Source: Bacillota bacterium (lineage in GTDB: Bacteria > Bacillota > Sulfobacillia > Sulfobacillales > Sulfobacillaceae). From it: a stretch of DNA of 56,088 bases. Position numbers and translations under genes: made by a program. Shown in pieces: positions 3,079-46,220 of the stretch. The notes beneath the pieces are model-generated. The model was given only the letters and a program-made list of their open reading frames with translations, made no database searches and was not told where the DNA came from. Every line of letters starts with the position of its first letter. Position 1 is the first letter of the stretch. The stretch spans positions 1 to 56,088 of the forward strand of contig JAJZZH010000076.1 of the NCBI GenBank assembly GCA_021797675.1, written 5' to 3'.

Positions 3079-3966
3079 TTACAAGGTGGGCCCGACGCGC
3101 GCAATGGCAAATACCTCGGTCCCCGTCGTCTCGGCCAGCGCCGGCTGCCCGCTGGCCACGGCGCCAACATAGTCAACCCACGCCGCCGGCGGACGGTCTG
3201 CGATCCAGCCGTCAAGGTCGTCCCCTAAAATGGGCTTGAGGGCGGGATCGTGGCTTAATCGGATCACGGGGGCCACAGGGTGGCCTCCCAGATGCTGGAG
3301 GTCGCCGCCTGCCAAGATGATCTGACATCCGGCGGCCACCAATCCGGTCAAGGTCTCCGCCTCGCCTCCCGTCTCCTGCATCCAACCTACCTGGATCCCT
3401 GCGGGCAGCGGAGTAGCGTAGGCAAGGGCTGTCCCCGGGCCTGGTCCGGCGGCCGCCCATAGCAGCCGCGCCCCCGCTTGTCGCAAGCCTTCAACCACCT
3501 GCGCCCCCGCCGGACCAAGCCGATCCCATCCGGCTAGCCCAATCACGAGGCGGTTCCAGGCTACGGGATGACGCAGCGGCTCTGCCCCGGCCGCCAACCG
3601 CTCACGGACCGCGGCCGCCGTCGTACGCATCCCTCCGGTGTCCTGAATCAACACCGCGTGCGCTGAGCGGCCGCGCTGCCGGATCCCCTCGGCCACCACG
3701 TCCGCGCCAATTCCCTCGCAGCCCAGTCCCACCACGACGGTGTGGCCCACGTTAGGGTGGGACCCAATCCCGATCAAGGTGCGCAAGGTTTGTTCCCTAT
3801 CGCTGCCAACTTGGGCACAGCCGAGGGGGTGGGCAACCGCGCGACCGCCATAGACGGCTTCGGCGGCCCGTTCGGCCGCGCGGGTGGCACACACGACCGA
3901 GGGCAATGCCAGCCTCCAATTCCGCACCCCCACCCTTCCGTCGGGTCTTTCATAGGCCTTGACCAT
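3079..3966 (-). CDS. UxaA-family hydro-lyase-like protein, N-half motifs kept
   Basis: 295 residues. The start GAYxRPDGRVGVRN-like segment (YERPDGRVGVRN, residues 5-16) is the entry motif of the altronate/galactarate dehydratase core (UxaA). It keeps the N-half signatures: H46 and GCAQ at 49-52, LGCE at 81-84, and IQDTGG at 107-112. It then lacks the whole CGGSD to SPGN...EKSLG block that holds much of the active site, and resumes with ETGGEAETLTGLVAAG and the PVAP/DDLDGWI tail. The family core is normally about 390 residues, so roughly 100 are missing. The neighbour at 5177-6349 shows the opposite pattern. The ATG overlaps the upstream stop (TAATG), with GAGAGGAG upstream, so it is translationally coupled to the FAH/SAF protein. 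I infer a subunit of a multi-protein hydro-lyase. Confidence 0.75.
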   Translation of the reverse strand: MVKAYERPDGRVGVRNWRLALPSVVCATRAAERAAEAVYGGRAVAHPLGCAQVGSDREQTLRTLIGIGSHPNVGHTVVVGLGCEGIGADVVAEGIRQRGRSAHAVLIQDTGGMRTTAAAVRERLAAGAEPLRHPVAWNRLVIGLAGWDRLGPAGAQVVEGLRQAGARLLWAAAGPGPGTALAYATPLPAGIQVGWMQETGGEAETLTGLVAAGCQIILAGGDLQHLGGHPVAPVIRLSHDPALKPILGDDLDGWIADRPPAAWVDYVGAVASGQPALAETTGTEVFAIARVGPTL

Positions 3967-5180
3967 TACGACTCCTCTCCGTGGGCCCCCGCGTCCACGC
4001 CTGCCTCCAAGCCCCGGCTGGCCTGCGTCAGATCACCGCGTCCGCGGTTGCTGTCGCAATTGTGCACATGCACATGCTCTCCGGACTCAATGCCTTGGCG
4101 AGCCCGACCAATGATTTCTCCGTACTTCACGACGGCTTGGCCCGCGGCTATGGCACGCACGGCCACCTTGTGTCCAAACGGAACGGGCGCCAACACCGTT
4201 ACGGTTCCTGCCCCGGTGCTCACGCGATCGCCCGTCGAAAGCGCCCGCAATGCAACGGCTACGTTGTCGGCCGGATGCACTTGGACCAGGGTATGGCCCT
4301 CGGTCGGCTTCACGGGTGCCCAAGCGGGGTCGATTCGACGCACCCCGTGTTCCATACGTCCTAGACGCGGAGCCGTCAGGGTCACCCGGTCACCATCCTG
4401 CAGGAAAAACGCCTCGTCCCAATCCGTTGCGGCGAGCGTGATCACGCCGGTCCATGCGGCGGGCGGCCAATTCCGGTACCGAGTGGCCATTTCTTGCACC
4501 AAGCCAGCCGGGTTCCAGCGCTGACCGACGGTCTGGGCCAGCACGCGCTCTCCCCCGCGTTCCACGGTCAGGGTGAGCGGCCATTCGGCGTCTTCGGCCG
4601 GGTCGCCGTCGTACACCGCGATCAACGGCGCCAACGCGAAGCTATGGTAAAAAAGCTTGGCCGCCTGCGGCCGGCCAGCCAGCCAAAGGTCGAGGGCGGT
4701 GACATCGAGCCCCAGTCCGTACCCGACAATCTCTTGACCGGCATATACGACCGCGGTGATGCCCGGCATGGCCACCTGCCAGGATGCGTCACGGCGCAGA
4801 CCCAAGGGATCCCCCGGTTTCGCCCCGGATCCCAGTTGCTTCAAAATCCACTCCCCGGGCGACGCGGTCGCGGCGGTGCTTCCCGCCAGGCGCAGTTCCC
4901 AGCGGCTCCGAGCGGATTCCCACACCTCGTCGAGGTCGAAGCCGAGCAGCCGGCCAGGATCCACCGCGATCGGAGGACCGTCAAACTCGGCGAGGCGGTG
5001 TACGGCGGCGGCGATTCCAAGGCCTTGATCGACCGCCCAGGCCGCGAGGTCGTCCAGCGTGGCCAGCGGCCGCCCGGCTACTTGGTCGGCCGGCACCACC
5101 TGCCAAGCCGTCGCATCCCGGCGAACGCCCATCCGTGCCCGCGCTCCGTCATGCCAACGCAACAGATAGACCGGATTCAC
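3966..5180 (-). CDS. FAH-like / SAF-domain fusion protein
   Basis: 404 residues from a GTG at 5180, which overlaps the upstream stop as GTGA and has GGGAGG eight bases before it; an ATG at 5204 is possible. The N-terminal ~300 residues resemble the fumarylacetoacetate hydrolase superfamily, closest in layout to 2-keto-3-deoxy-sugar-acid dehydratases: a DEVW segment, then a GYGLGLDVTALDL segment matching GYTxxNDVSARD. The metal-ligand motif E-x-E expected just before it reads PGI, so two acidic ligands are missing. The C-terminal part (about 300-376) is a SAF domain of the UxaA small-subunit type, with HPADNVAVAL, GHKVAVRAI, VVKYGEIIG and ending VHVHN. Fusing a FAH-like domain to the UxaA SAF domain is unusual. 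Both flanking genes encode UxaA cores without a SAF domain, so this protein probably supplies it to a complex acting on a sugar-acid-like compound. Confidence 0.75.
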   Translation of the reverse strand: MNPVYLLRWHDGARARMGVRRDATAWQVVPADQVAGRPLATLDDLAAWAVDQGLGIAAAVHRLAEFDGPPIAVDPGRLLGFDLDEVWESARSRWELRLAGSTAATASPGEWILKQLGSGAKPGDPLGLRRDASWQVAMPGITAVVYAGQEIVGYGLGLDVTALDLWLAGRPQAAKLFYHSFALAPLIAVYDGDPAEDAEWPLTLTVERGGERVLAQTVGQRWNPAGLVQEMATRYRNWPPAAWTGVITLAATDWDEAFFLQDGDRVTLTAPRLGRMEHGVRRIDPAWAPVKPTEGHTLVQVHPADNVAVALRALSTGDRVSTGAGTVTVLAPVPFGHKVAVRAIAAGQAVVKYGEIIGRARQGIESGEHVHVHNCDSNRGRGDLTQASRGLEAGVDAGAHGEES

Positions 5181-6349
5181 TGGACCGCCCTCCCTTCTCC
5201 CCATCCTGGAAAGATCCCGAATTCCCAGTCACGGCCGCGTTCGGCCGCCACCGTCTCTCCGTTGGCCACCGCGATGATCTTTCGGAAGAGCTGGTCCGCG
5301 ACCTGCTCGACGCTCAGCTCACCATCAATAATCGGCCCCGCGTCCAAGTCAATGAGGTCATCCAGGTGCATTTTCAAGTCCGTGCGGGTCGACACCTTGA
5401 TCACAGGGACAATGGCCGATCCCGTCGGTGTCCCGCGTCCGGTGGTAAACACGATAATCTGTGCGCCTCCCGCTGCCATCCCTACCAGTTGCATGACGTC
5501 GTGGCCCGGGGTGTCCATCACGGTCAGTCCCGGTAGGCGCGGGCGCTCCGCATAATCGATGACGTCCACCAAGGGGCTTGACCCGCCTTTATGCACGCAT
5601 CCCAGCGATTTTTCCTCAATGGTGGTAATGCCCCCGGCCATATTGCCGGGCGACGGCTGCGCCCCCCGAAAGTCCACGCCCATGCGCATTGCTGCCGATT
5701 CGGCGTGGCGGACGGTGGCCAACAGCCGTTGTCGCACCGCCGGGGTAATTGCGCGCTGTGCCAACAGGTGCTCGGCACCAATTAGCTCGGTGGTCTCGGC
5801 CAATATCACGCGCGCTCCGGCGTCGACCAAACGGTCGCTGACCCGCCCCAAGGCCGGGTTAGCGGACAGTCCCGAGCAGGCATCCGAACCGCCACACTCG
5901 GTTCCCAACACCAGTGCAGAGAGCGGCGCCAGCTTTCGGCTCAGCGCGTTTTTCGCCCGGTTCCAGTCACCCAGCCAGTGTAACACGGCCTCGATCGTTC
6001 TTCGGGATCCTCCCGCCTCGGCTAGCGTGATAACGTCGTAGGGCGCGGTGGCCGGCAAGAGCTCGGTAACCGCGGTGAGCAGGGGATCGGCAGGCGTCGC
6101 CCCTAACAGGATGGCCCGGTAAACGTTCGGATGGTTCACCCAGCCCGCTATCGTGCGCACGGCGAGTGTCCATCCTTCCAGGTCGGGCCCATAATCCTGA
6201 CTCACCTGAATGCCCACTGCTCCCGACTCCTCGCGCACCGCGGCCATCGCCACCCGATTGACCGCGGGCGACAAGGGCAACACCAGAACGTGGTTCCTAG
6301 TGCCTACGCTGCCGTCGGCGCGTATATATCCATGAAATGTTGACAGCAT
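5177..6349 (-). CDS. UxaA-family hydro-lyase-like protein, C-half motifs kept
   Basis: 390 residues from the ATG at 6349, where the family entry motif GYIRADGSVGTRN (residues 8-20) begins; the frame is open 93 codons further upstream, but that part looks non-coding. This is a full-length altronate/galactarate dehydratase core. The C-half is intact: CGGSD at 152-156, SANPALG, ETTELIGAEHLL, PSPGNMAGG near 232-240, IEEKSLG near 244-250, DTPGHD and FTTGRGTPTG. The N-half signatures are lost: the HxxGCxQ position reads SQDYGPD, LGCE reads LGATPA, and the IQxxGG position reads LAEAGGS. This complements the 295-residue neighbour, which keeps exactly those N-half motifs. It is the first gene of the operon, and its stop overlaps the GTG start of the FAH/SAF gene by four bases. 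I infer a heteromeric enzyme assembled from both cores plus the SAF protein. Confidence 0.8.
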   Translation of the reverse strand: MLSTFHGYIRADGSVGTRNHVLVLPLSPAVNRVAMAAVREESGAVGIQVSQDYGPDLEGWTLAVRTIAGWVNHPNVYRAILLGATPADPLLTAVTELLPATAPYDVITLAEAGGSRRTIEAVLHWLGDWNRAKNALSRKLAPLSALVLGTECGGSDACSGLSANPALGRVSDRLVDAGARVILAETTELIGAEHLLAQRAITPAVRQRLLATVRHAESAAMRMGVDFRGAQPSPGNMAGGITTIEEKSLGCVHKGGSSPLVDVIDYAERPRLPGLTVMDTPGHDVMQLVGMAAGGAQIIVFTTGRGTPTGSAIVPVIKVSTRTDLKMHLDDLIDLDAGPIIDGELSVEQVADQLFRKIIAVANGETVAAERGRDWEFGIFPGWGEGRAVQ

Positions 6350-6563: not shown

Positions 6564-6651
6564 AATGAACGCTCCCGCCGCCTAACCCTCTCAGGTTGAG
6601 GCGGCGATGTCTGGGATCGCTCCCGCAAGTGCCTGGCTCATTGATCTCTGC
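6564..6651 (-). repeat. TnpB-type (IS605/IS1341) right-end-like scar, copy A
   Basis: Read on the minus strand this holds two hairpins: a GGGA/TCCC hairpin, then a GCCGCC/GGCGGC hairpin, ending GGGAGCGTTCATTAG. A copy with the same order and a covarying first hairpin is at 32005-32090. The layout (tail, hairpin, GGGAG, GTTCAT end) resembles the 3' end of IS1341/TnpB elements. No tnpB gene adjoins it. The surrounding 6350-6852 stretch otherwise holds no gene I can support. Confidence 0.45.
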
Positions 6652-20691: not shown

Positions 20692-23394
20692 ATGGATACC
20701 GAAAAACGCGAGCTCGCCGACGTGCTTTTCGCGCAATTAACCCATCACCCCACCGCTTCGGACGCGGATTTCACGGCCTGGCTCCGTCAGCTTCCTCCGC
20801 ACCCCGCATCCTGGGACAACGCCATCACGCAAAGCGTTTTGGATCGCTGGCTGCGCTCTCGCCCATCCTCGCCGTTAGCCGCGCTCGCGCCCAGCAAGGT
20901 TCGAAACCGCAATACAAACCCGCCAGCCTTCAACGCCGAGCAACACGCCTTGCTTAAAGCCCAGCGTAAAGCCCAGAAGTTGGCCCGATCGCAACGAAAA
21001 GCGTGGAAACACGTTTATCTTCAACAATGCGTCGATTGGCTTCGCGCGCATCCTTCCGACGCCGTCAACGAACAGGGCCACGTGCTCTTGACCCCCGTTT
21101 CCGCCGCGGTGCCGGTTCCCGTCGTGGACGGGGATCCCCTTCCCATGAGCTTAAACGAAATCCAGCAATACCTGGTGGACCACAAGCTAGCGGTTTGGGA
21201 CTCCGAGGACCAAGTCCTCTTGACCCCGGAAGCGCATGCCCAAAAACAGGCTCAACGCCAAGCGGAGAAAGCAGCCGCCCATCTGCAATGGTGCTCTCTC
21301 GCGATCGCCGCCCTCGATCTTCACCGCACCGAGTGGTTGGACGGGCCCGGGGTGCCTGAAGCGACGCTCTGTACGGTCGCCCAAGCCCATACCACCAAAG
21401 AAGTGAAGGCGGTCCGTCAATGGGCGGCACGGGTCGGGCTTGTTCCGTGGACTGTCGGGTTCCACCAGAGATTCTATGGCAGTACCGATGCGGCTGAGAA
21501 AGCCCGGCGTGAAGCCGAACGTGCCGCCTATCACACGTTTCTTGTTCGGCACCATTCCACCGTCGAGCACACGCGGTCCGCATGGCGGGCTTTAGGCCTT
21601 CCGGGCGATCCGCCTCCGTCCGAGACGTTTTGGGCGCCAACGGACCAACTTCCCGTCTTCACGGAAGGTGCCCGGCCCTCGCAATACGGCTTCTGCACCC
21701 TCGCGCAAGCGGGGTTACGCCGGGTGCCGCGCGGCATTTCCGCCATTGCGACGCTGCAAACCGAAACCGGCTGGTTTAGCCATCACCGCTATATCCCCTT
21801 GTACCGCACCGCTGATCTGCAACCCCACAGTACCCAACTCTTGGTATCCCCGGAAACCGCCGCCGTGCCCTTCCGATTTTCCCCTCCGCATGCCCGTCAG
21901 GTCCTCTTGCATGTCGGCCCCACGAACGCCGGCAAAACCCACGCCGCGCTGCATGCGCTGGCCGACGCGCAACAAGGAGCCTATCTTGCCCCGCTCCGCC
22001 TTTTGGCGTGGGAGGCCTACGAACGCCTCAACGCCCTGGGGTGTCCCACCCGGTTGCTTACCGGGGAGGAGTCGCTCGACACCCCGAACGCCCAGGTGGT
22101 TGCCGCCACCATCGAAATGCTACCGCCCGCTTCGTATGATACGGTGGTGGTCGATGAGGCCCAATTGATCGCCGATCCGTCCCGGGGCGGAGCCTGGACC
22201 CGTGCCTTGGCGCTCACCGATACCCACACGCTGCATGTGTGCTGTACCCCGGAAGCCGCCCCGTTCTTGGCCGGCCTGTTCGAACATTGGGGCGATACCC
22301 TGACCATCATCGATTACGACCGACTTGTGCCGCTTGCGCCCGATCCGGAACCGATGACGCTTCGCGCGTTGCCCCCGCGTTCCGCGGTCATTGCCTTTTC
22401 CCGCACGGCGGTCCTGCGATGGAAAGCCGCGATTGAACAGGCCCATCCTGATGCCACCTGCGCCGTCATTTACGGAGCATTGCCTCCCGACCTGCGCCGC
22501 GCTCAAGTCGAGATGGTGCTGTCGGGCAAGGCGGCCTATGTTGCGGCGACGGACGCTATCGGCCTCGGTCTCAACCTGCCGTTGGATCATGTCTATTTTG
22601 CCGAAGCGGAAAAATATGACGGCACCCAGCGCCGCGCGCTCACCGGCGCGGAACTTCGCCAGATTGCCGGACGGGCCGGACGCTTTGGCTTGGCGGCCGG
22701 AGGAACCTTTGGGGGCTTAAGCGATTCGGTGCATCGCACGGTGTGCCGGTTGGCCCTTGCCGATCCCGTTCCCGTACAACGCGGCGTGTGGCACCCGGTG
22801 TTCTCCGATCTCGCCCCTTGGCCTTGGCGGCTGGGCGCTCGTCTGCGCGCTTGGCGCACCACCATCCCTCCGATTCTCCCGAACGCCATCCGCCTTGCCT
22901 CCCTCGACGACATGTTGCGCTTGGCCGACCTTTTGCCCGCCCCGATCGAAGCGGCGGATCCCCGCCGGGCCTTCCGGTTATTGATGGCTCCGGTGTCCCA
23001 CGAAACCTTGCCCTACTGGACCGACGCCGTACGCCGCAAAAGGATGCTCAAACCCCCGCAACCCTTTGGCCAACCCATTGTCGACGATGCCACCTTGGAG
23101 GCCGCCGAACGCTCGCTCCATGAACACGACCTCTGTTTATGGTTCGCGCGTCACGATCTCTTCCGATCCCTTCCGGATCTCGACGCCCTTCGCCGGCAAC
23201 GTAATCACCTTGCCAAGGCGATTCACTACGCGTTGCGCGACCGACACGTTTTCGGACGCTGTCGCGCGTGTCATCAACCCGTGCCTCCCACGCATCCCTA
23301 TCCGCTCTGCGACTCCTGCTATCATGCTCAGCGCTCGTATTCGTCATCCTGGCGTCATGGCCGGGATGCCTGGGATGCCTGGGATGATGATTAG
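20692..23394 (+). CDS. SUV3-like superfamily 2 RNA helicase
   Basis: 900 residues; ATG with GCAGGAGG seven bases upstream. The helicase core lies at about 400-675. It has HVGPTNAGKTHAALHAL (Walker A, 405-421), TGEESLDT, VVVDEAQLIADPSRGGAWTRAL (motif II, near 486), VIYGALPPDLRRAQ, ATDAIGLGLNLPLDHVYF (motif V, near 620) and QIAGRAGRFG (motif VI, near 657). This series, especially GPTNxGKT, the DPxRGxAWTRAL motif and IYGxLPP, is that of mitochondrial SUV3 rather than other bacterial helicases. SUV3 unwinds RNA for degradation in mitochondria. The first 400 residues show no domain I know and include an Arg/Lys-rich coiled segment near 95-110. The C-terminus has two CxxC pairs (CRACHQ, CDSCY; 857-877), a likely zinc ribbon, then an acidic tail. 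Its role in this host is unknown; the context suggests an accessory island. Confidence 0.85.
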   Translation: MDTEKRELADVLFAQLTHHPTASDADFTAWLRQLPPHPASWDNAITQSVLDRWLRSRPSSPLAALAPSKVRNRNTNPPAFNAEQHALLKAQRKAQKLARSQRKAWKHVYLQQCVDWLRAHPSDAVNEQGHVLLTPVSAAVPVPVVDGDPLPMSLNEIQQYLVDHKLAVWDSEDQVLLTPEAHAQKQAQRQAEKAAAHLQWCSLAIAALDLHRTEWLDGPGVPEATLCTVAQAHTTKEVKAVRQWAARVGLVPWTVGFHQRFYGSTDAAEKARREAERAAYHTFLVRHHSTVEHTRSAWRALGLPGDPPPSETFWAPTDQLPVFTEGARPSQYGFCTLAQAGLRRVPRGISAIATLQTETGWFSHHRYIPLYRTADLQPHSTQLLVSPETAAVPFRFSPPHARQVLLHVGPTNAGKTHAALHALADAQQGAYLAPLRLLAWEAYERLNALGCPTRLLTGEESLDTPNAQVVAATIEMLPPASYDTVVVDEAQLIADPSRGGAWTRALALTDTHTLHVCCTPEAAPFLAGLFEHWGDTLTIIDYDRLVPLAPDPEPMTLRALPPRSAVIAFSRTAVLRWKAAIEQAHPDATCAVIYGALPPDLRRAQVEMVLSGKAAYVAATDAIGLGLNLPLDHVYFAEAEKYDGTQRRALTGAELRQIAGRAGRFGLAAGGTFGGLSDSVHRTVCRLALADPVPVQRGVWHPVFSDLAPWPWRLGARLRAWRTTIPPILPNAIRLASLDDMLRLADLLPAPIEAADPRRAFRLLMAPVSHETLPYWTDAVRRKRMLKPPQPFGQPIVDDATLEAAERSLHEHDLCLWFARHDLFRSLPDLDALRRQRNHLAKAIHYALRDRHVFGRCRACHQPVPPTHPYPLCDSCYHAQRSYSSSWRHGRDAWDAWDDD

Positions 23395-42131: not shown

Positions 42132-44033
42132 CTAAGCTTGCGGCACCGCCCGGCGATAGCGCCGCCCAATGTGTTCGATGAGGGGAACCAGGGGTGCCAC
42201 CCGGTTAAACGAAGGGACCAGATAGACCCCTTGACACCGATTCGCGACCTGATCAATCAATTCCAAGGCCAAGGCGACCCCGATTTCTTCCGCACCCTGG
42301 CTTTGGCTCTCGAGGCGGGCCAAAATCTGCTTGGGCACCGTAATGCCCGGCACTTCGTTATTCAGATACTGCGCCTGGCGCAACGACACCAGGGGCATGA
42401 CGCCCACCAACAGAGGGATGCCGACCGGACCCATGGCATCCAAAAATCGCTGTAAGGGTTCGAGCTCATAAATCGGCTGCGTCATGATGAAATTTGCGCC
42501 GGCCTCCAATTTCTGACGCACGCGCACCATTTCGTCGGCGAACGAAACGGCATTCAAATTCAGGCCGACCCCCACCTCAAAATCCGTCGGGCTGCCCAAT
42601 TTCAATCCCACCGCGTCCACGCCGTGATTCAAGGCTTGGGTCACTTTGACCAGCCCAATCGAGTCGAGGTCGTAGACGGCCGTGGCGACCGCGTAATCGC
42701 CCAAACCAGGCGGATCCCCGGTCAGACACAAGACGTTCTTGATGCCGAGCGTATAGGCCCCCAACAGGTCGCTCTGCAATCCCATCAAATTGCGATCGCG
42801 CGTGGTAAAGTGCAGGATGGTGCTAATCGGCACGGCTTCTTGCACGATGCGACAGGTGGCGGCGGCCGATAGTCGCACCCTGGCCATGGGACTGTCGGCC
42901 ACGTTAATCAGGTCGACCCCCGCCTCCGCCATGCTTCGAGCCGCTTCCACGAGACGATGGACGTTCACCCCGCGAGGAGGATCGAGTTCCACGCTAATCA
43001 CAAATCCGCGTTCCGCCAAAATCTCACCAACGCCTCGGCCCATCTGCCGCACGCCGGTTCGCTCCTCCACGACAGACTCGCTTTCCTCGCGAAGGGCAGG
43101 ACCGCCCCAGTGGAGGTGGGTCCACGGCTCGGGCTGGCCGTGGGCCAGCATCCGGATGTGCTCCGGGCCGGTCCCGCAGCATCCGCCGACCAAGGCGCAG
43201 CCGGCGGCCTTGAGCGCCTGAGCCAGGTTGGCGACATATTGCGGGCCCGCCGGATACAAAACCTGTCCCCCGTGCCACTGCGGCTGCCCCGCATTGGGAA
43301 AGGCGGCCAGTCCAATGCCGAGCCGCTGGGCTATCGGGGCCATCCGTAAAATCGCGTCGAGCAAGGGACTCGGCCCGCTGCCACAATTCGCACCCACCAA
43401 GAGCGGCGGGCCGCCGGGAAGAGAGGCCATGGCTTCGGCGGCCATCTCCGGGGTGAGTCCATAAAGCGTGGTTCCTTCGGGAGAAAAGGCAAAGCTCACG
43501 ATGACCGGTGCAGCACTCTCCGCTCGAATCGCCGCCACCGCCGCCAGCACCGTAGGGACATCAGACATCGTCTCCACAATAAAACCGTCGACTCCGCCGG
43601 CCATTAGTCCAGCCACCACTTCCCGGTAGGCCGCGAGGGCGTCCTCAGCCGCTATGCCCGTCATCACCGGCGAACCCACGGGCAACGCCAGCGGTCCCAC
43701 CGAGCCCAGAATCCAGGCGTTTTCCCCGAAGATGTCGCGGGCATGGCGGGCAAGTTGCGCCGCCCGCCGATTAATCTCGTAGGCCTCATTGTGCAGGCCC
43801 ACCTGGGCCAATTTCGAGCGATTGGAGGCAAAAGTGTGCGTTTCGAGGACACGCGCTCCCGCCTTCAAATATTCGAGATGCAGGTTAATGACGGCTTCCG
43901 GGTGGGTCACCGGCATCCGGGGAATTGCCCCGGCGTCCCAACCCAGCCGGGAAAATTCGGTCCCCGCAGCCCCGTCGCCAATCAATGTGCCCTGACGGCG
44001 CATGGCATCAACAAAATCGTTCATATCCCGCAC
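42132..44033 (-). CDS. yitJ: Homocysteine S-methyltransferase / methylenetetrahydrofolate reductase fusion
   Basis: 633 residues. The N-terminal domain (1-300) is a homocysteine methyltransferase: LIGDGAAGTEFSRLG, ETHTFASNRSKL, the zinc cysteine in LLVGANCGSGPSP and the pair in GGCCGTGPEHI. The C-terminal domain (about 330-625) is a MetF-type flavoprotein: FVISVELDPPRGVN, NVADSPMARVRLSA, LCLTGDPPGLGDY, LGSPTDFEVGVGLN and FIMTQPIYELEPLQRF. This two-domain form occurs in Bacillus YitJ. It supplies methyl-tetrahydrofolate and can itself methylate homocysteine. It lies between the MetE-like pair and lysC in the SAM-controlled operon. Confidence 0.93.
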   Translation of the reverse strand: MRDMNDFVDAMRRQGTLIGDGAAGTEFSRLGWDAGAIPRMPVTHPEAVINLHLEYLKAGARVLETHTFASNRSKLAQVGLHNEAYEINRRAAQLARHARDIFGENAWILGSVGPLALPVGSPVMTGIAAEDALAAYREVVAGLMAGGVDGFIVETMSDVPTVLAAVAAIRAESAAPVIVSFAFSPEGTTLYGLTPEMAAEAMASLPGGPPLLVGANCGSGPSPLLDAILRMAPIAQRLGIGLAAFPNAGQPQWHGGQVLYPAGPQYVANLAQALKAAGCALVGGCCGTGPEHIRMLAHGQPEPWTHLHWGGPALREESESVVEERTGVRQMGRGVGEILAERGFVISVELDPPRGVNVHRLVEAARSMAEAGVDLINVADSPMARVRLSAAATCRIVQEAVPISTILHFTTRDRNLMGLQSDLLGAYTLGIKNVLCLTGDPPGLGDYAVATAVYDLDSIGLVKVTQALNHGVDAVGLKLGSPTDFEVGVGLNLNAVSFADEMVRVRQKLEAGANFIMTQPIYELEPLQRFLDAMGPVGIPLLVGVMPLVSLRQAQYLNNEVPGITVPKQILARLESQSQGAEEIGVALALELIDQVANRCQGVYLVPSFNRVAPLVPLIEHIGRRYRRAVPQA

Positions 44034-44158: not shown

Positions 44159-45139
44159 TTAGCGAGCCGCTAACTCCTGGCGCACTTCGTGAACGGCCTC
44201 CATCATCAGGCGCAGTTTGGCTTCGGCCTCGTCCCAGGTCCGCGTTTTCAGTCCACAATCGGGATCAATGTACAAGCGGTCAGCGGGGACCGTCTCCAGT
44301 GCCTTATAAATGCCGTGCTTCACCGAAGCTAGCGATTCCAGGCCGTGCGAATGCACGTCAACGACGCCCAACGCCAATTCCTTGCCCGCAGGCCAGGGAG
44401 AGCGGGCAATCAGGTCGAGCAGCTGAAATCCTTGGTTGGCGGCCTCCAAATCCAGTTGGTCCACCGGCAAATCCAGCAGCGCGGGATAAATCGTCTCGAA
44501 GTCGCCGTAGCAAATATGACTAATGGTATGCGCATTCAGTCCGCGCGTCACCACCGCCATCGCCTCGATGGCCAAGTCCAGTTCTTCGGGCCGGGTCGAG
44601 ATGGCCGGCTCATCAATTTGAATATAGGTGGCGCCCGCCTCGGCCAGCGCCATCGCCTCTTCGTGGACGATCGCCGCCAGATCCCGAATTAGCGAGCGAC
44701 GGTCGGGATAATAGGCGTTAAACGACCAGTCACAAATCGTGTAAGGCCCCGTCAACATGCCTTTGACCGGTTTAGCGGTGAGCGCCTGGGCCGCCTTCCA
44801 CGCGTCCACGGTGAGGCTCCGAGCCGCTCCCGGTTTGCCCACGACGATGGGTTTACGGTAATAACGGTTGCCGTACGAACGCACGGGCAAAGACTCCTCA
44901 AAGCCTTGCCAGTTTTCCGCGAAGTAGGCCACCATGTCCCCCCGTTCCATCTCGCCGTGCACCAAGATGTCCAACCCAAGATCTTCTTGCAGGCGGATGA
45001 CCGCCTCGGTCGCCTGACGTTCGGCGGCGGCCAGTTGCTCACGACTCCATTCTCCTCGACGGAATCGTCCTCTGGCTTCGAGGAGTTGCGGAGGCTTGGG
45101 GAAACTTCCTACCGAAGTGGTTCGTAATACTGGCTGCAT
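44159..45139 (-). CDS. Methionine synthase, MetE C-terminal (catalytic) type
   Basis: 326 residues from the ATG at 45139 (start LRTTSVGSFPKPP); an in-frame start 14 codons earlier overlaps the preceding gene. It has the MetE catalytic domain alone. The zinc site is intact: His and Cys in SHICYGDF, Glu region VDVHSHGLES and Cys in YIDPDCGLKTRTW. GEMERGDMVAYF is the substrate-side motif. Full MetE is about 750 residues, so this is a core MetE. It follows the zinc-less MetE-like gene by one base, which suggests that the two subunits together replace the two halves of MetE. Archaeal core enzymes act with corrinoid donors, so the methyl donor is uncertain. Confidence 0.88.
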   Translation of the reverse strand: MQPVLRTTSVGSFPKPPQLLEARGRFRRGEWSREQLAAAERQATEAVIRLQEDLGLDILVHGEMERGDMVAYFAENWQGFEESLPVRSYGNRYYRKPIVVGKPGAARSLTVDAWKAAQALTAKPVKGMLTGPYTICDWSFNAYYPDRRSLIRDLAAIVHEEAMALAEAGATYIQIDEPAISTRPEELDLAIEAMAVVTRGLNAHTISHICYGDFETIYPALLDLPVDQLDLEAANQGFQLLDLIARSPWPAGKELALGVVDVHSHGLESLASVKHGIYKALETVPADRLYIDPDCGLKTRTWDEAEAKLRLMMEAVHEVRQELAAR

Positions 45140-45140
45140 C

Positions 45141-46139
45141 TTAGCGTCCCTCGCTTTGCCTGGATGGGTTCGTCCCGTCAACCGCTGCCCGTACGGCCGC
45201 CAACTGGCGCACTTTGGCTTCGGCCCGGTCGGGGGGCAGCAATTCTAACCCGCTGGTCGGATGCACCACGACCCGTTCAGCCGACTGACGGTGGAGGACC
45301 GGCTCCAACTGGCGTGCCAGGCCTTCCGGATCCTCAAGGCGGACGTTGCGGGCGTCAATGGCGCCCACGCCCACCGTCCACGGCATGCTGACTGCCGCCA
45401 GCACAGCGTAGACCTCGGGGTCGGCCACCGCATCCAAATAGACCGCCGACCAGGGCAGACTCGCCAACGGTTCCAGCCAGGAGTGAACGCGCGGGCCCCA
45501 ATAGAGGGCAAGGGATTGGGGCAGCGAGGCTTCTGACAAGAGGCTCCGGTAGACGTCGATGACGGATTGGGCGTCCACCTCCCGGCGTTGAGCCAATTGC
45601 GGCTCATCCCACTGAATCTCGACGACTCCGGCCTCGGTCAGCGAGTCGCGCTCCATCTGGAGCACCTCAATGAGGTCGCGCAACAGGCGCTCCGGGTGAT
45701 GATAACTTTGATCTTCCGCCAGCGCCAAAAAGGTAAACGGCCCCGGCAGCGCCACCTTGAGCGGCACGCGGGAGACCTCGGCCGCCAAGGTGGTCCAGTA
45801 GCGCAGGGACCCGCCTTGAAACGCCAGCCGGCCGCGAATCACCGGATGGCGAAAGTAAAAGTTGTTGTCATACAGGCGCAGGAGGCCCTCCGCATAAAGA
45901 TTGTCGACATCACGCACGATAGGGTCAAAGGCGTCGTTCCATCGAATTTGGCCGTCGGTCGTCAGATCAACGCCCACCTCGGCGGCTAGATTGAGCACAC
46001 GGGCGGTAACTTCACGGTAGGTCCGTTCCAGATCCCGGGGGCCGCTAAGCCCGCGGTCAAACCGCTGAATCTGCGTCCTGACGCTGGGCCCGGGTCCAGC
46101 GGGAATTTTGGGATACGACCCTTGCAGGGCAATTTTCAT
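45141..46139 (-). CDS. MetE N-terminal-like protein without zinc ligands
   Basis: 332 residues from the ATG at 46139; the preceding codons lie in the leader. The fold is that of the MetE barrel: KIALQGSYPKIP, DLTTDGQIRWND, VALPGPFTFLALAED, VVEIQWDEPQLA. The zinc positions are changed: the HxC position reads GPRVHSW, and the DCGL position reads PTSGLEL. MetE N-terminal domains are such zinc-less copies of the catalytic domain, so this gene and the next (one base apart) look like a split MetE. Its role is probably folate or homocysteine binding. It is the first gene after the SAM riboswitch, terminator and ribosome site (GTGGAGG). Confidence 0.82.
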   Translation of the reverse strand: MKIALQGSYPKIPAGPGPSVRTQIQRFDRGLSGPRDLERTYREVTARVLNLAAEVGVDLTTDGQIRWNDAFDPIVRDVDNLYAEGLLRLYDNNFYFRHPVIRGRLAFQGGSLRYWTTLAAEVSRVPLKVALPGPFTFLALAEDQSYHHPERLLRDLIEVLQMERDSLTEAGVVEIQWDEPQLAQRREVDAQSVIDVYRSLLSEASLPQSLALYWGPRVHSWLEPLASLPWSAVYLDAVADPEVYAVLAAVSMPWTVGVGAIDARNVRLEDPEGLARQLEPVLHRQSAERVVVHPTSGLELLPPDRAEAKVRQLAAVRAAVDGTNPSRQSEGR

Positions 46140-46191
46140 CGTTTTCCTCCACTCGACGGTCGTTCTCGCTAGATTCCCTGACCAGCCGCGC

Positions 46192-46220
46192 AAAAAAAGA
46201 CGCGCCTGGAAGAGGCGCCC
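46192..46220 (-). terminator. Terminator of the SAM leader
   Basis: GCGCCT-CTTCC-AGGCGC is followed by GTCTTTTTTT on the minus strand. It lies just after the riboswitch and before the first gene, as in Bacillus S-box leaders. Confidence 0.85.

Follow-up and report, generated by a model that had tools for sequence, protein, structure and literature searches.

Two genes of the UxaA/GarD type, located in the window (the whole stretch of 56,088 nucleotides that was analysed), were found to encode proteins that, judged from their sequences, very probably hold the two halves of one enzyme's conserved residues, through duplication followed by reciprocal loss. Our best reading, which we regard as likely, is that the long core (L) and the short core (S) constitute an obligate heteromer, arisen after this duplication and loss, whose active site would be formed by L, S and the SAF domain of the protein encoded between them (M).

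Organization of the operon and the encoded proteins

The three genes are located head to tail on the minus strand in the order L, M, S. The L gene (5177-6349) encodes a long UxaA/GarD-type core of 390 amino acid residues, with an open frame that runs upstream as far as a TTG at 6628, and the S gene (3079-3966) encodes a short core of the same type with 295 residues. Based on Pfam, an alignment of M proteins and the start and stop overlaps, the M gene (3966-5180, GTG start) was assigned a product of 404 residues with an FAH-like domain and a C-terminal SAF domain; an in-frame ATG at 5204 would give an alternative product of 412 residues. The stop and start codons overlap in GTGA at the L/M junction and in TAATG at the M/S junction. 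In a preliminary description of this DNA, the middle gene was said to supply the SAF domain and to overlap both neighbours. The domain and the two overlaps are real, but the gene does not encode a SAF domain alone, being an FAH-SAF fusion.

Considered as one enzyme, L, S and M carry both core domains of the family: L exceeded the cut-offs of PF20629 (314 bits) and PF04295 (53 bits), and S exceeded that of PF04295 only (the second domain, 104 bits), its score for PF20629 (the C-terminal domain) falling just under the cut-off (22.5 vs 26.8 bits). Neither core reached the threshold of the GarD equivalog TIGR03248 (730.85 bits), with 227 bits for L and 18 bits for S.

The SAF domain of M (residues 313-382 counted from the ATG at 5204; 4059-4268, minus strand) matched PF08666 (E 5.5e-10) as well as the UxaA SAF structure 3k3s (E 1.9e-15), and these matches indicate that the C-terminal domain of M is the missing small subunit of the dehydratase. 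The FAH-like part (residues 155-288 in the same numbering; 4341-4742, minus strand) scored just under the PF01557 cut-off (22.3 vs 23.9 bits). The Glu-x-Glu found in other M proteins (HVPEPEL) reads QVAMPGI in the window. Together with an Asp, it forms what we take to be the metal ligands of the FAH family, and the window M does not have this ligand set of the COG3970 KDP dehydratases. In the alignment, Glu-x-Glu was lost in M of the window and of L035, L036, L037, L039 and L042, and was kept in most other M proteins. On these residues, the FAH part is probably dead and purely structural in the clade of the window, L035, L036 and L037. Across the M proteins, the motif was lost in two or three lineages with the SAF fusion kept, so that the domain seems to have persisted in the fusion after its own catalytic function was gone.

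On other contigs of the same genome, two further UxaA-like single cores (L055 and L056) were found, each with an ordinary SAF neighbour. Both are SuyB-like, the first three Cys being absent and the Cys of CxxSD kept. Elsewhere in the window, two adjoining genes for MetE-like cobalamin-independent methionine synthases (44159-46193, ∼340 and ∼350 residues), each matching both MetE domains to differing degrees, are located next to a homocysteine S-methyltransferase/MTHFR fusion (42132-44033). Moreover, a 900-residue protein (20692-23394, plus strand) contains a DEXQ helicase domain of the Suv3 type, a family better known from mitochondria.

Partition of the conserved residues between L and S

The N-half motifs were found in S and the C-half catalytic motifs in L, all on the minus strand. 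In S, these are VVC (residues 24-26; 3889-3897), GCAQ (residues 49-52; 3811-3822) within HPLGCAQ (residues 46-52), LGCE (residues 81-84; 3715-3726) and IQDTGG (residues 107-112; 3631-3648). The Cys of each of the first three motifs is present in 19 of 19 S sequences and in none of 18 L sequences; the Gln of IQDTGG is present in all 19 S and nearly absent from L. At every N-half motif, L has non-matching residues. In L, the motifs are CGGSD (residues 152-156; 5882-5896), with its Cys in 18 of 18 L and 0 of 19 S; SPGN (residues 233-236; 5642-5653), in which PGN is invariant in 14 aligned L sequences and the G and N columns are kept in L only; EKSLGC (residues 246-251; 5597-5614), invariant in L and deleted in S; and GRGTPTG (residues 304-310; 5420-5440), invariant in L and replaced in S. 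The preliminary description had reported that the 295-residue protein keeps HxxGCxQ, LGCE and IQxxGG and lacks CGGSD through EKSLG, and that the 390-residue protein keeps CGGSD, SPGN and EKSLG and has lost the N-half motifs; both patterns were seen in S and L.

Retention was scored on the 19 S and 18 L sequences, with the 76 columns that are at least 95% invariant across 30 full-length relatives as the reference. Eight columns were kept in S only (C27, G50, C51, D57, G83, C84, E85 and Q109 in L057 numbering), 40 in L only, 15 in both and one in neither (N321, same numbering), the remainder being partly kept. Not one orthologue carried all catalytic motifs on a single core polypeptide; they were split across L and S throughout. 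The overlap of the losses, one column against 5.1 expected (hypergeometric P 0.004 for one or fewer), serves as a guide only, since the columns are not independent. All 19 S and all 18 L sequences show the complementary pattern, and the losses share a single column, so that chance is not the explanation.

S is about 90 to 110 residues shorter than full cores, as might be seen if a full core were decaying into a pseudogene or had been misassembled. This explanation is extremely improbable, as it is refuted by the conservation of S: the same deletion, an open frame and invariant motifs were found in 19 sequences from 18 genomes, including that of Sulfobacillus harzensis DSM 109850. The predicted fold of S is likewise of high confidence (AlphaFold2, mean pLDDT 94). 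The mean pLDDT of the L model was 85.5, and both cores are predicted to have the GarD core fold, E. coli GarD (6u7l) being the only good structural match for either (L: Z 41.6 over 334 residues, rmsd 2.7, 36% identical; S: Z 24.6 over 263 residues, rmsd 2.9). According to these models, S is a whole two-domain core minus the C-half catalytic loops, not half a protein, and L is a whole core with altered N-half loops; an arrangement of two whole cores makes sense if loops from two chains together form the site. At CGGSD and SPGN-EKSLG, the pLDDT of L dropped to 40-63 (AlphaFold2, the modelled cores being L and S), and these loops may become ordered only with the partner chain.

A D-arabinonate dehydratase of the UxaA/GarD family contains ferric iron as determined by EPR, and four Cys residues that are family-wide and absent only from SuyAB were proposed in that one paper to be the likely iron ligands (PMC6336799). 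We assign these four to the Cys of VxC, GC, LGCE and CGGSD, in that order; the assignment is our own, and the spacing of the motifs fits it. E. coli GarD contains all four. In the split pair, the proposed ligands are divided three to one: S has the first three without the fourth (19/19), and L has the fourth without the first three (18/18).

Given this division, it could be argued that L and the SAF domain make up a complete lyase that has no need of a Cys site, as in SuyAB, and that S is a regulatory or iron-sensing subunit. SuyAB is indeed without these Cys (PMC6336799), the SuyB-like L055 and L056 of the same genome, which are single-core proteins, likewise miss these three Cys, and one genome (G001) has L and M with no detectable S. 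However, the SuyB-like proteins keep nearby N-half residues (HPYGxLQFGxD) that are lost in L, and L is nearer to the Cys-containing enzymes (40-48% identity vs 31-35%); moreover, a mere regulator would have little reason to keep the catalytic N-half set in 19 of 19 sequences. We therefore consider this explanation unlikely. The SuyAB sulfolactate sulfo-lyase resembles the present system in its separate SAF subunit and large core, but it has a single core without the three N-half Cys, whereas here there are two cores and the second, S, bears them.

Distribution and ancestry of the split pair

The class was surveyed in 154 genomes of Sulfobacillus and its kin, and the relatives of the window genome were searched. 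S was found in 19 genomes and L in 19, with both in 18, all of one class; for the L of the window, orthologues were identified in 18 other genomes. The carriers include Sulfobacillus harzensis (isolate DSM 109850), S. acidophilus AMDSBA3 and many metagenome genomes, and one genome has two copies of the operon. The co-occurrence search proposed in the preliminary description thus found L and S together in 18 of the 154 genomes of the class, and a core occurring alone with its missing motifs restored, which had been named there as grounds for rejection, was found in none of them. Together with the column retention, this co-inheritance strongly supports the part of its interpretation in which the family's conserved residues are divided between two paralogues.

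Both exceptions to co-occurrence stop at a contig edge. In G003, S and the end of M lie at the edge, and L is probably just unassembled. In G001, of the window's genus, L and M are present (L198, G001:C68), and S was absent from the 193 bases after M and from elsewhere in the assembly, which is 97% complete; this only exception of weight reflects a gap in the assembly or else a genuine loss of S. In G025, L adjoins S, and M is located on another contig.

A sample of 398 genomes from across the phylum yielded no other split pair; a short frame in G231 was considered as a split core and rejected, being a full core broken by a frameshift. S patterns run against 84,980 species genomes returned only the Sulfobacillus-type S already found, the rest being full-length, although an S of the type found in G106 (see below) would escape these patterns. 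Distances within the S proteins and within the corresponding L proteins were correlated (r 0.93 over 16 pairs), as co-inheritance of the operon alone would also produce.

In the maximum-likelihood tree, S formed one group (support 97) and L formed one group (support 100), and G106, a distant genome on a deep branch, was represented in both. S and L as a single clade were not rejected (p-AU 0.53), which fits one duplication. Independent origins in G106 and the Sulfobacillaceae were considered and are not favoured, as S and L each form one group (L167_S being a long branch). G106 has the order L (387 residues), SAF (98 residues) and S (273 residues) with the same losses and no FAH domain; a separate FAH gene with an intact Glu-x-Glu is found elsewhere in this genome. 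Because the losses in G106 are the same although its locus lacks FAH, the split is placed before the FAH fusion. The order of events was probably duplication and split, then FAH-SAF fusion in the Sulfobacillus lineage, and then loss of the FAH metal ligands in the window clade and in L039 and L042.

These data also bear on the view that L and S are separate enzymes or binding proteins with new functions, their complementary losses having come from independent relaxation. The pair is diverged, S orthologues differing by 51% on average, and duplicates often change function. Nevertheless, relaxed losses would be expected to coincide in about five columns and do so in one, no intact locus was found with the missing half restored in either core, and L and S remain adjacent both in G025, where M has left the locus, and in G106, where the locus has no FAH. 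We regard separate functions as quite improbable.

Candidate composite site, activity and significance

We infer a physical complex, a cross-interface site, its iron coordination, the reaction and the substrate along the following lines. The ancestor would have had one core and a small SAF subunit, presumably as a homodimer or a larger homo-oligomer, in which the halves of each active site came from different chains across the dimer interface. After duplication of the core gene, the C-half loops would have been lost from the S copy and the N-half loops from the L copy, leaving S with the N-half catalytic loops (three Cys and a Gln) and L with those of the C-half; both copies would have retained the two folded domains as a scaffold. 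An L/S heterodimer would then contain one dead site and one intact site, in which the N-half of S faces the C-half of L and M adds its SAF domain to complete the site. The second domain is reportedly the dimer interface in GarD, and this is the domain that holds the S motifs.

We consider it likely that the site is physically assembled across the L/S interface. The fuller proposal, that three polypeptides would build the iron site and substrate pocket, one paralogue giving three Cys, the second giving the fourth Cys together with the other catalytic loops, and M giving the SAF domain, is somewhat favoured; iron would then have three Cys ligands from S and one from L. Were the active site of the family contained in a single chain, the simple pairing of L with S would not repair it. 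We know of no work establishing that active sites are shared between chains in ordinary UxaA/GarD enzymes.

The most likely activity is the dehydration of a sugar acid in an iron-dependent reaction that yields a 2-keto-3-deoxy acid. M would have arisen as a fusion of the SAF subunit with an FAH-type 2-keto-3-deoxy-acid dehydratase, thereby linking two successive pathway steps, and its FAH part would later have lost the metal ligands in the window clade. By analogy, the fusion suggests that the dehydration was once coupled directly to the conversion of its product by an FAH-type hydrolase or dehydratase. In Herbaspirillum huttiense, the D-arabinonate dehydratase C785_RS13685 is encoded beside the KDP dehydratase C785_RS13680 (COG3970 FAH), the two forming a characterised pair in the D-arabinose pathway (PMC6336799). 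In both cases, the gene of a UxaA-type dehydratase is accompanied by that of a COG3970 FAH dehydratase acting in the following step, but there the two are separate, complete proteins, whereas here FAH and SAF form one protein and the core is divided in two.

In the window, none of the neighbours of the operon resembles a sugar-acid gene. In relatives, the neighbours include a pectate lyase and a pectinesterase (G006, G014), sugar dehydrogenases, enolase-type dehydratases and an aldehyde dehydrogenase (G030), and lactate-racemase-like nickel genes (G003, G028, G030). These point to sugar-acid and pectin metabolism; as they differ between genomes, the substrate is ambiguous. Near the operon of L042, L043 and L045, a nickel-pincer cofactor isomerase (NPN_iso_grp_22 in L042) and LarB/LarC-like genes were also observed.

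The altronate dehydratase UxaA and the galactarate dehydratase GarD (COG2721; PF08666, PF04295, PF20629) share with L, S and M the fold, the domain types, the SAF domain and, when L, S and M are pooled, all motifs. In those enzymes, however, all motifs are on one chain (or on SAF and one core), whereas here the motifs are shared out between two cores in complementary halves, with SAF joined to FAH. No two-core form was found in the freely available literature that was searched, and heteromeric members were described there only as SAF and one core. Annotation pipelines are likely to label both cores 'UxaA family hydrolase' and to miss that neither looks complete alone.

If the three-polypeptide site is true, it would mean that ordinary UxaA/GarD active sites are shared between chains. 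The split pair is in itself a clear natural example of how duplication and complementary loss would divide an active site, with the deep branch of G106 preserving an earlier step and the later branches showing the gain and decay of a fused second enzyme. The sequences by themselves predict the place of the poorly understood iron site of the UxaA/GarD family, across a chain interface.
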